Below are positions 47,901 to 53,900 of a stretch of 64,000 nucleotides of DNA, in pieces; positions within the stretch are counted from its first letter, which is position 1, and the number at the start of each line of letters is the position of its first letter. Source of the stretch: Chondrosia reniformis (Eukaryota; Porifera; Demospongiae; Chondrillida; Chondrillidae); contig OX359199.1 of NCBI GenBank assembly GCA_947172415.1, positions 4,180,001-4,244,000 of the forward strand, in the 5' to 3' direction. The position numbers and the translations under genes are program-made. The notes beneath the pieces were generated by a model. It ran no database searches and was not told the origin of the DNA. It saw only the letters and a list, made by a program, of their open reading frames with translations.

Positions 47901-50900
47901 AGAGCTAAGTTCATCCTCAAACAATCACATTCCTCCTGAATGTTCATATATGCTAGAATATACGTACATATACAGTACATACTGTAACTACTTACTTCTT
48001 ATTTGTCATTTTAGAGGATTGCCATCTTAGATGCAGACCCCACTAGACCTACTGTAGCAGCAGCTGAAGCTGTAACTTCTACTGCACTCAGTCAGGATAC
48101 TGAGACAAGTAAGTAGTTAAGTCAATAATTATAGTTAAGGTATGTACGTACGTACGTACATACAAAAAGTATATTGTAAGTGTTGTGTCTAAAGAGTATT
48201 TCAAGCTACATATATATAGCAACTGAAGTTACAATACATAGGTATATTATCACAGTATCTCTAGTTTACTGTGACTGGCTATTAGCAGTTTTCAACATTT
48301 TTCCTTTGTTTTGGTAGACTATAACGAAAGAGTTCTTCAGTTTCTACGCCAACCTAATCTATATGACTGTATAGCTACCAAGTTTGTGGAACCAGTTAAC
48401 AATGACTTAAAGTGAGTGATTAAGTAGAACTGTGTAGATACGTATGTATATTACCATATTTCTTTGAATATGATAGAGCATTCATCAGTGAAATTTGTAC
48501 CTCTTCGGAACCTTTAAATCACTTTCAGGAAAGGCAAGAAATGATGGAACTTATGATGATTCTTAGGTAATTTATTACTCTACTTTCTATGGTAACATTT
48601 AAGTGTACATATACGTACGTACCTAAGAGTTAATTGCACTGAGCCTGTACAATGGCTATGATGCAATAGAAATAATCACTTATTTCATCATATCATCACC
48701 TTTTTACTGCGGGCACTCAGTTTCCCGTAGACTGTTGCCTCCATCTTCATTTAATATAAAACCACAAGTGTTTTGCTCGTAATAGATAAACTGAAAACTC
48801 ACCACCAGAACTATAACACACTGATGAGGATGAAACAGTTGTCATTTTTTGTGTTATGCTCTGTTTATAGTTTATTTGACAACGAGATTCTACATGGCCT
48901 TTCTGTTGCTATGGAAACACCCCAAGTGGCTCCAGCTATTTGGTGTTCACCTGTTCAAATAGTAGCATTCTTTCGCAGACCTGATATCTATGCTGTCATT
49001 TCCAGAAAACTTAGCCTAACACAAGGAATAAGGTACGCACATTTGCTAATGAGTTACGTACCTGCTTATGTACGTACATAGGTTAATAGGTTAAGATATG
49101 TGTATTCCTTCTTTCCTTCACTGTAGAACAACTATTGAATGTATTACTAACGGTGGTGAAGAAGTAATAGAACAGAAGAGAGATGACCCTGATATTAATT
49201 ATCTTATTTCTTTATTTTCTCGGGAGATTGATGGATACTGGGAGGAGATACAAAGGCCAGACATTTCCAGACAACCATCTGATTTCAGTAGTTATGTCTC
49301 TCCTTTGGCTCAAAGTTATCCATGCACTCCTAGGGAAATTTACAGTTTCTTCATGCAGAGCAATATATACAGCATAATTTTACAAAGGAGGCCAGAATTT
49401 GATTTATCCCTGAGATCAGTGGTTGAGACTGTTAAAATGCAAGGCCCTCGTGTTGTTTCTGACCTCATCAATCGAGAGCATGTACTCAAGGAACTGCTGG
49501 ATGAATTTCATGATGATATTAAGAGCTACAATAATCCAGAAACAGGAATAACTACGTACTCACCTGAGCAAAGTGTCAGGCCGTGTGATTTATCTACCAC
49601 CGAAATAGCCCGCTACTTCAATGAAGTTCCTTTCATTACTTTAGAGTCACTTCATGGGCCGTTTTCACTGCATGAAAGGTATACACTTTATTTTATTAAC
49701 CTTAATTGTATGTGCTAGACCATACCATATTTTGGAAAATAAGGGACTTTTAGATCTGAAGCTGATCTTAAAACTGTGATACCGTGATACCGTGGGAACC
49801 AGAGTCTCCCCTTAGCCACTCAAAAAGATGGTTGAGCCATAGACAGCTGTTTCATTCTCATTAGGAATCATAAGAATGGCATACGATGGAAGTGTGAGGT
49901 AGATGTCTATGGCTCAACCATCTCTTTGAGTGGCTAAGGAGAGGCTCTGGTTCCCATTAAGTGAACTTAAATTCCACCTATTGCTCATTGTGCTCCTCAG
50001 GGGACATGAGTGGGTGGGGTAAAATCCAGAGTGAAATGATGATTATGTGTACATACTGCACTTTAACAGTTTAATAAGATCATAGAGAGTTGAAATTATT
50101 TTTGGACCTTTTAGTGATGTTATTAATCTTCTGAAAGTGGCTTCAGATCCCACTAGTGAACTGACTGATATGAGATACAGAGATCCTTCAGCTGAAGACC
50201 TCATTCAAAAGTTTGCCAGGAATATTCGGGACTATTCAGTAATGGGTGGTCATGTTCTTACTGTGACTGATCTTCAAGAAGTCAATCATCCAGCAACCGT
50301 TTCTTATCATTGCAAGCCCCTCACAGTTGCAGATTACAACAGGATAACAGCAAGAGCAACAGTGGAAACTGTTCCTTTTGAAGCCCTTACAATCAGTGAA
50401 ATCGGACTCTACTTTCACCAAGTTCCCTTAGCCACTCTTGAATACTTGAAAGGTTCTCTATCAGTGAATGAAAGGTATGGAAGCTCATATTATGAATATA
50501 TGTAATTCTGTAGAAGTCACTTTTCAGTATCCAAACACATGTATATAAACACCAACCTTTCCTCATTTTTTCATATTGCTGATGAAGACCTACGGGTTGA
50601 AACGTTCTGTTGCTGTTGCTCAATTAACTTCATATATCATCATGATCGCGACAAATAAACCCTATCACTTCATGTATATACATGTATGGACCTTTAAAAC
50701 GAGTTATGCAATATGTACAGAAGGTATATTTTGTGAGGAAAGCTTGTTCCCAGCTGTATACGTAGAGCAATGACACTATTTCAATACGTATCAAGGGACT
50801 GTTCAAAGAAATGGAACTACTCGCCAGATTCATCTTGGCTACTAAATGTCTTCAAAATAGCAGAAATTAAACAGAATATCTGTTCACAGAACCCTAATGT

Positions 50901-53900
50901 ATATAAAAGATGATTTTCTGGTACTCTAATAGTCACCATTCACTTTACCAGAATTAAAAAGAATATGATAATAGCTACAACTTACCTTTGATAGCGTACT
51001 ATCTGGTTGATACACTTCATAACTGGCAATTCTATCTGACTAGTTACTTGTCTGTTTTCCTCCTTTTAATTGATCACATATAATGAGATTCCTACAGCAC
51101 CAAGAACTCACTGGGATATACACGTCTATTGCTTAATTGTAGATGTTGTCATTCATGTGTAACGATAACTGCTTAATTCTGTGTCATTTGTAGGATGATT
51201 GCTGTCTTACTGGCACAAGATTCCAATCCTACCAATAAAGTGTCTGATTTGATGAACCAGAAGAACCCGCATCTCGAAGGTTTAATCAGACATTATGCTG
51301 TTGAGATTCGCAGATTTACTGAGGGAACTGGCTTGTTTGCTACCCCATATACTGATGACTTGCTCTCGGATGCACAGATTGCTGCCTTCTGTCTCCAGGA
51401 AGACATCAGAGAACAGCTAGCACTTAAAAGACACACAGTTTCTGAGTACGAGAGGTAAGATCTTTGATCTGTTTCTGTATAAAGAAAGTCTATATGTATT
51501 GTTTTATGGTAACATGTGTACTGTAAAATTGCAGATGTAGATATAGTCCTGCTCTGGCACTGACTGTTGCTGCACTTTCTAGTAGCACATACATATATAT
51601 ACTACTTATATCCTTTGTTTTAATCCAACTGATTCAAAATAATTTTTTCTAGCATTAAGATCACCAAAAATAAGTAAAATACTAAAGTCAACAATAAATA
51701 AGTATATAGCAAAAGTTGCGTTAGGCTGATTGGTTAAATTATAAACCAATTGAGCCTGTGACTGCTTGTCTGATGGTTTTTTGATAAGGCACTTTCAACA
51801 GCAATTGACTAGGTGAATATTGCCGCTTCTCATAATTGTTTTATTCTGTATGTATTCTGATATAAAGGCCACACCGTACGTATGATCAAAACATTAGTAA
51901 TGATTTGTTTTCAGTTGAGTTTTGGTAAAATTCATTACAATGTCTAATATCTAATAGTCAATGTCACATGTATGTATAAAACAAAAGGGTATATATCTAT
52001 GTAATGGTCATAGTCAAGGGGTGAGTACTATAGCCAAGAAAGTTTATTTCTGCGAAACATGTGAGATTTGCTTCTGTTAATAAATAAAGTAATTAGATTA
52101 TTAAAAGTTATCAGAAAGTAACACAGAAAATGAATGCGTAAGATTGCTGCAGTGACTGGTTCATCCTGTGTAAATGTTACACTTAATCAGCAATTCACAT
52201 TGAATCAATAATGCAATATTAGCTAATTGCCATGGCAATGGGGTATACGTATATATATATATATATCATGGAGTATGGGGTGTACGTATATATATATATA
52301 TATCATGGAGTATGGGGTGTACGTATATATATATATATCATGCGGTGAATGGGCACGGGTCTCCAGCAATACATGTGGTACAGTGTACTTGTGACTTTGC
52401 CTTCTCTTTTTGATAGTGCAGTTGAATCACTCCTGTAATTTTGTAGCTTTTCACTGATTACCATCAGAACTGCTGATGACCCAACTGAAGAAGCTGAAGA
52501 GTTGAGAAGGGTGGATCCAACATTCAGAAGACTGATTGAGAAGTTTTCTGGCGAAATTCTTCACTATAGTAAAAATTCATTGGAACTGAAGAAGGAAGAC
52601 ATCCAAAAATTCTTTGATTCACCCAACATCTTTGAAGCATTACAGGCAAAGGGGTTTCGCTTATCAAGGGCCATGTAGTTAGTTAATAACAACAATAGAA
52701 TTAAGATGATTACACTATACTTACTTGTGGTTAACTGATTATCATTTCAATCACATGTGTAATATCGAGGTACATGGAAATGTGTTTCTTTACTGTTCGC
52801 TGCAGTGACATGATTCAAATGGTGCACGTCTCTGGAATAGCTGATGTCAGAACTAACCCACTCTATGAGTGTGTAATAATTAGATTATGCAAGGAGATAA
52901 ATATGTTTGCAGAGAGCCAGTTACTGACCACCAATGTAGTGCCAGGACTTTCACAAGCTCAAGCGCTGCCAAATGACACTGCAACTTTAAGTAGTGCAAC
53001 TAGGAAGCCACCTACTAGCAAGGAAAAGGAAAGATTTGCTGCTCTCTTTTCTAAAATGCACAGGAAGTTGAACAAGAAGCTAAGTTTGATCAATCCAATA
53101 GATTTGTAAGTTAAACATGTGGCATACGTACGTACCAACTGACCAATTAACTGAGAGTATGTCATTTCTTTATTTCATCCAGTAAAATTGTTGTACGTCG
53201 CTCTCATCTACTGGAAGATGCATATGATGCCATCATGAAAGCAAAGACTACCTCCTTGCAGTTCCAAAATGTCAAATATGAGTTTGATGAAGAACCAGGG
53301 TGAGTAAGGTACAATCACTGTTACACTGCAAAGTATACTGTTCATATCATTCTTCTCCACAGGGGTCACTTCATCTATAGTATAAATTCTTTGATCCCTT
53401 CTTTGTTTTAATATTTGTTTACATTTGTATTTGGTTATTTGTTTTTATGTTTGATATGTAGATTGTATGATTTTCTTCCAAATTGTATTTCAGTGATTTT
53501 ACAACTCTGGGTTCTACTATTTTTGCGTAGGTTGGATTATGGAGGTCCGGCTAGGGAATTCTTTTTCTGTGTGTCACACGAGTTGTTTAATCCTTACTAT
53601 GGTCTATTTGAGTATTCAAATGCTGGCTCCTACACCCTGCAAATAAGTCCATTTTCAGCTCAACTCGAGAATCACATCCAGTGGTATGCATTACACTTGA
53701 CGTTGCACTTGACTTAGTCAGTTTATACTTATACATACTTTAATGTATACGTACGTACATATATAATGTAACCATATTTTCTCATGCCAATCCTATTTAA
53801 GTTACAATATAATTCACACCAAACTGCTAAATCTGCCTGAATTTATAAAGAATGAATCCATTTGTAGAGTTTAAATATCTATGTAATCTGCCAACCATCA

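Follow-up and report, generated by a model that had tools for sequence, protein, structure and literature searches.

Seven homologous modules between WW2 and HECT in a HECW-type ligase gene of the sponge Chondrosia reniformis

The HECW-A gene and its domains

We analysed a window of 64,000 nucleotides (positions 4,180,001 to 4,244,000, forward strand, of contig OX359199.1, assembly GCA_947172415.1) from the demosponge Chondrosia reniformis, the genome of which is reported as 117.37 Mb in 14 chromosomal pseudomolecules plus a mitochondrial genome (PMC12181767). The window contains a gene, here named HECW-A, that the original prediction had modelled as a HECW ligase of 28 exons (Table 1). This model, predicted from the genomic sequence with splice sites chosen by inspection, does read as one open frame: it encodes 1,899 aa, and AG/GT is found at 27/27 introns. 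The HECW identity also holds, since Pfam reports HECW_N (residues 47-128), HECW1_helix (709-774), WW (780-809) and HECT (1595-1898) in the same protein. We base the placement in the HECW family on the first two of these: HECW_N (PF16562) scores 53.9 bits near the N terminus (cut-off 26.7), and the helical box PF18436 scores 40.1 bits (cut-off 25) immediately upstream of WW2. The helical box and WW2 together match PDB 3l4h, a solved fragment of human HECW1, at E 3e-21. The HECT domain scores 298.6 bits, and we take its Cys 1867 to be the catalytic (active-site) residue.

Pfam gives no report of a C2 domain in HECW-A, and recognises one WW domain only. By eye, a WW1-like stretch that is missing its first Trp can be seen in exon 8 (45214-45291); a similar stretch, also missing its first Trp, is present in a paralogue, HECW-B (contig positions 4771960-4772096), for which Pfam again gives one WW. 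WW1 may be degenerate in both genes. The helical boxes of the two proteins, and only these, also bear a weak resemblance to the STI1/HOP DP domain (PF17830; 15.5 bits in HECW-A and 19.0 bits in HECW-B, below the cut-off of 29.1), a possible hint as to their fold.

Several repeats lie within the gene. Exon 6 contains a coding minisatellite (43587-43829; 24-bp unit, 10.1 copies, 94% matches) that encodes (E/V)PEVVDHS repeats, and intron 18 has a 37-bp tandem repeat (52238-52338; 2.7 copies, 98%). Introns 4 (42550-42640) and 16 (49797-49900) hold similar repeat copies, recognised by eye, with the common stretch 'gagccatagacagctgtttcattctcattaggaatca'; these are probably copies of a dispersed element.

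Table 1. Positions of the features of HECW-A (numbered within the window) and of HECW-B (numbered within the contig)
Feature	Position	Strand	Description
HECW-A gene	38976..55937	+	28 exons, 1,899 aa; single open frame, GT-AG introns, by inspection; Pfam HECW_N, HECW1_helix, WW, HECT
M0, HECW helical box upstream of WW2	46250..46767	+	exons 9-10; PF18436 4e-10; human HECW1 3l4h
WW2 domain	46768..47420	+	exons 10-11; PF00397 4.5e-10
M1	48318..48901	+	exons 13-15, two inner introns; counterpart of the HECW-B single module
M2	48944..49241	+	exons 15-16; leave-one-out 39.7 bits, 0/2000; walk E 2.3e-7
M3	49323..49532	+	entirely within exon 16, no intron; leave-one-out 19.9 bits, 0/2000; walk E 1.6e-5
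M4	49590..50238	+	exons 16-17
M5	50386..51320	+	exons 17-18; leave-one-out 19.8 bits, 0/2000
M6	51363..52570	+	exons 18-19
M7	52586..52911	+	exons 19-20; weakest of the seven; leave-one-out 14.9 bits, 0/2000; walk E 0.0018
HECT domain	53571..55931	+	PF00632 8.5e-89; Cys residue 1867 in HTCFNRL
HECW-B	contig positions 4763571-4772096	minus	C-terminal part modelled; ~0.53 Mb from HECW-A, same contig

Seven homologous modules between WW2 and HECT

At E <= 1, Pfam has no match over HECW-A residues 860-1541. It is between WW2 and HECT that seven divergent repeats of an 80-95 residue unit had been predicted, and seven there are: scored with leave-one-out profiles, for which the remaining six were combined with the module of HECW-B (see below), 7/7 modules (M1-M7) exceed all of the 2,000 shuffles against which each was tested. 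Even the lowest scorer, M7, has 14.9 bits, whereas the best of its shuffles has 8.5. The size of the unit needs some revision: most spacings are near the predicted range (87, 95, 89, 120, 86 and 77 aa from start to start), but the full span is 77-120 aa and the module cores are 65-73 aa long, joined by linkers of 5-49 aa.

A profile walk, seeded with the canonical module alone and run through HECW-A residues 932-1541, recovered all of the further modules (6/6) at a loose threshold of 0.05, and marked no other place in those residues; M4 and M5 were matched over their later part only (1151-1199 and 1272-1320, respectively). Locally shuffled arrays walked at the same threshold gave no hit in 98/100 cases and one hit in 2/100. 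With stricter thresholds the walk retained 3/6 modules at 0.01 (0 hits in 100 shuffles) and 2/6 at 0.001 (0 hits in 60 shuffles). Pairwise identity among the modules is 14-39%; by pairwise alignment alone, several pairs (e.g., M1-M4, M1-M5, M6-M7) do not rise above shuffles, and inner support in the module tree is weak (24, 26, 50, 78, 81), with higher values only for M4+M5 (96) and the M0 pair (99). On the strength of the profiles, we conclude that the seven segments are homologous modules. In one alignment, the linker between M4 and M5 looked as if it might hold the remains of an eighth module; this candidate was rejected, its score against M3 being reached by 73/2,000 shuffles.

No Pfam family reaches its cut-off on M1-M7. 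A search of the PDB with the module profile returned 17 hits up to E 10, the best at E 0.23, all of which we take as chance, i.e., no convincing solved structure was found. In collections of viral, bacterial and archaeal sequence, no relative was found either for the array (viral contigs) or for the HECT part and M2-M5 (genome contigs). Closer to home, the array profile resembles the helical box that precedes WW2. Its score on M0 of HECW-A is exceeded by 0/2,000 shuffles and that on M0 of HECW-B by 2/2,000, and hhalign of the array profile against three helical boxes (HECW-A, HECW-B, human HECW1) gives a probability of 84.5% (P 7e-6, one comparison). It is these profile tests, not single pairs, that carry the kinship: when the boxes were aligned pairwise with single modules (300 shuffles), only HECW-A M0-M3 and M2-HECW-B M0 were above all shuffles, and most other M0-module pairs were weak or at chance. 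We therefore regard the modules on either side of WW2 as probable distant homologues, a relation that the original prediction had assumed for human HECW1/2.

Two predicted structures contain only helix: one was computed for exon 16, with exons 17-19 as its alignment (mean pLDDT 48.8), the other for M3 alone (mean pLDDT 58.3). 'Helical' is accordingly used of the modules here in the sense of a prediction from these two models, whose confidence is low and whose quality does not suffice for a fold search or for showing a folded arm.

A single-module paralogue and the exon structure of the array

A single-module comparator does exist: the same genome has a second HECW gene, HECW-B, with one module after WW2. 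We searched 117,379,552 bases in 15 contigs. The whole array as query gave at least 9 matches, 8 of them in HECW-A and 1 in HECW-B; the HECW-B module exon found, among the matches listed, itself and, weakly, M1 (E 1.44). Among the matches listed in these searches, modules were met in HECW-A and HECW-B only. The C-terminal 14 exons of HECW-B form a continuous reading frame of 850 residues; 13 of them begin after AG, and the first is without a set 5' border. Pfam reports HECW1_helix (47.2 bits) and HECT (312.8 bits) above their cut-offs, a WW at 22.4 bits is below its cut-off of 26.9, and a frame upstream weakly resembles HECW_N (23.3 bits, below the cut-off of 26.7).

The two paralogues have in common the helical box, WW2, an M1-like module, HECT (181/354 aligned residues identical) and HECT intron phases; they differ in what separates WW2 from HECT, a spacer of 730 aa in HECW-A and of 199 aa in HECW-B. 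In the latter, the one module is free of inner introns and lies in a single 370-nt exon. This exon opens in phase 1, directly upstream of YNE, and closes in phase 2, directly upstream of the HECT start. The outer borders of HECW-A exons 13-20 agree in phase with the two borders of this exon, the second to within one residue. Because HECW-B has one module between matching outer exon borders, it appears that one paralogue was expanded.

Exons 14-23 of HECW-A had been predicted to begin and end in phase 2, and each of them does. As a hallmark of the array, this run has to be shortened: exons 14-20 carry array sequence, but exons 21-23 belong to HECT. The junctions between exons 20 and 21, 22 and 23, and 23 and 24 have same-phase counterparts in HECW-B (the first is one residue off; the other two are at the same residue), and are therefore HECT introns; the junction between exons 21 and 22 has no HECW-B counterpart. 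The phase-2 run at exons 21-23 thus mostly comes with the HECT domain. Throughout array exons 13-20 (2,047 nt), the coding frame is without stops in 8/8 exons; the two alternative forward frames each have 2-23 stops per exon.

An intron at the same place in six modules had also been predicted, and it is found, always in phase 2, in M1, M2, M4, M5, M6 and M7: it falls at residue 30, 30, 30, 31 and 30 of M2, M4, M5, M6 and M7, respectively, and at residue 33 of M1, which is longer before this intron and has a second inner intron. M3 has none. Exons 17, 18 and 19 each span a module boundary, starting with the latter half of one module and finishing with the opening half of its successor; exon 16 contains M3 in full, flanked by half of M2 on one side and half of M4 on the other. 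This pattern fits the duplication of symmetric exons that had been proposed; yet an exon is not one module, and the duplication steps themselves are not visible, as no similarity was found among introns 12-21 by blastn at 1e-3. The symmetry of exons 14-20 is such that alternative splicing could vary the number of modules with the frame kept.

Origin and possible role of the array

We consider it quite probable that HECW-A is a HECW-type ligase in which a single post-WW2 module was expanded to seven, which may now serve as a docking and spacer arm. According to this scheme, an intron-bearing stretch would have been duplicated in tandem, turning a single helical module between WW2 and HECT into seven, with the sister gene HECW-B keeping the single-module form in the same genome. 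The product may be pictured as a chain of small helical domains on short linkers, which might offer substrates or adaptors additional, divergent surfaces to dock on, and might also lengthen the reach from a WW2-bound substrate to the HECT active site. Two features make multivalent docking combined with a spacer arm the likeliest function in our view: the copies have diverged, yet the module pattern is retained in every one of them, and WW2, described as a substrate-interaction domain in the HECW family (PMC8446043), lies >500 residues further from HECT than it does in HECW-B.

A somewhat unlikely alternative is that the array mainly tunes HECT activity, by autoinhibition or oligomerisation: the HECT-adjacent module might pack on the catalytic domain, and the extra copies might add regulation or self-association. 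Autoinhibition by the WW-HECT linker can occur in NEDD4-family ligases, and the HECW-B module ends shortly upstream of the HECT start. A helix just before HECT is also described as covering a hydrophobic patch and supporting stability and solubility (PMC9547173). Such a role sits less well with M1-M5, which lie >200 residues upstream of the HECT start (residue 1543), and the low identity among the modules is unlike that of copies of one interface. About equally doubtful is neutral or near-neutral accretion, in which symmetric exons were duplicated and tolerated, as frame and fold were kept, with no new role. Exons 14-20 are all frame-neutral, the modules are very divergent, and single-module HECW-B could cover the essential function; against this, all eight array exons have stayed open and every module is still recognisable, which suggests selection on the fold.

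The reverse direction of change, an old seven-module form (of early animals or sponges) from which the single-module form was derived by loss, we regard as quite improbable. The high divergence of the modules does indicate that the array is not recent, but HECW-B carries one intron-free module between matching outer exon borders, and this module matches M1, M2, M3 and M7 pairwise; moreover, human HECW2 presumably carries a related module after WW2. An artefact of gene model or assembly, in which unrelated helical segments or pieces of neighbouring genes had been wrongly joined, is hardly credible in spite of splice sites picked by eye in a model built from sequence alone, given that the frame stays open and the phases match throughout the array, that module profiles beat shuffles, that the divergence is too high for assembly duplication, and that outer borders are common to the HECW-A array and HECW-B.

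Expansion of a single module into a docking and spacer arm also admits a bolder version, which we think unlikely as it stands: that this sponge-lineage HECW paralogue is a ligase with a frame-neutral seven-module arm, in which divergent modules would bind different partners and splicing would vary the set. If true, the array would let a HECT ligase adjust its recruitment of substrates, and would be built from a domain without a Pfam description. The seven-copy array and its single-copy sister, present in the same genome, mark the borders of an uncharacterised module, which was multiplied while HECT kept its Cys; HECW-A and HECW-B thus offer a natural comparison for what the post-WW2 module does. 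Variants of HECW2 and HECW1 figure in discussions of neurodevelopmental delay and ALS (PMC9547173, PMC9867363).

The closest known systems are HECW1 and HECW2 (NEDL1 and NEDL2; Hecw in Drosophila), which are described as derived from 'NEDD4d' (Marin 2010). As in HECW-A, they unite HECW_N, helical box, WW and HECT in one protein. HECW-A probably differs from them in its seven modules after WW2 and in the long spacer that these occupy, and also in that C2 and the first WW go unreported by Pfam, although fly Hecw is likewise described as being without C2 (PMC8446043). The array modules are distant relatives of the HECW1_helix family (PF18436, PDB 3l4h); yet PF18436 reports 0/7 of them at E <= 1, in a search whose filters drop most matches above about 0.1. 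Among the titles and abstracts listed in searches of open-licence literature, none seems to report an array of modules in the stretch from WW2 to HECT. HECW ligases as such are known; what appears to be new here is the array of seven modules between WW2 and HECT, and, likewise, the sister gene that carries a single one.
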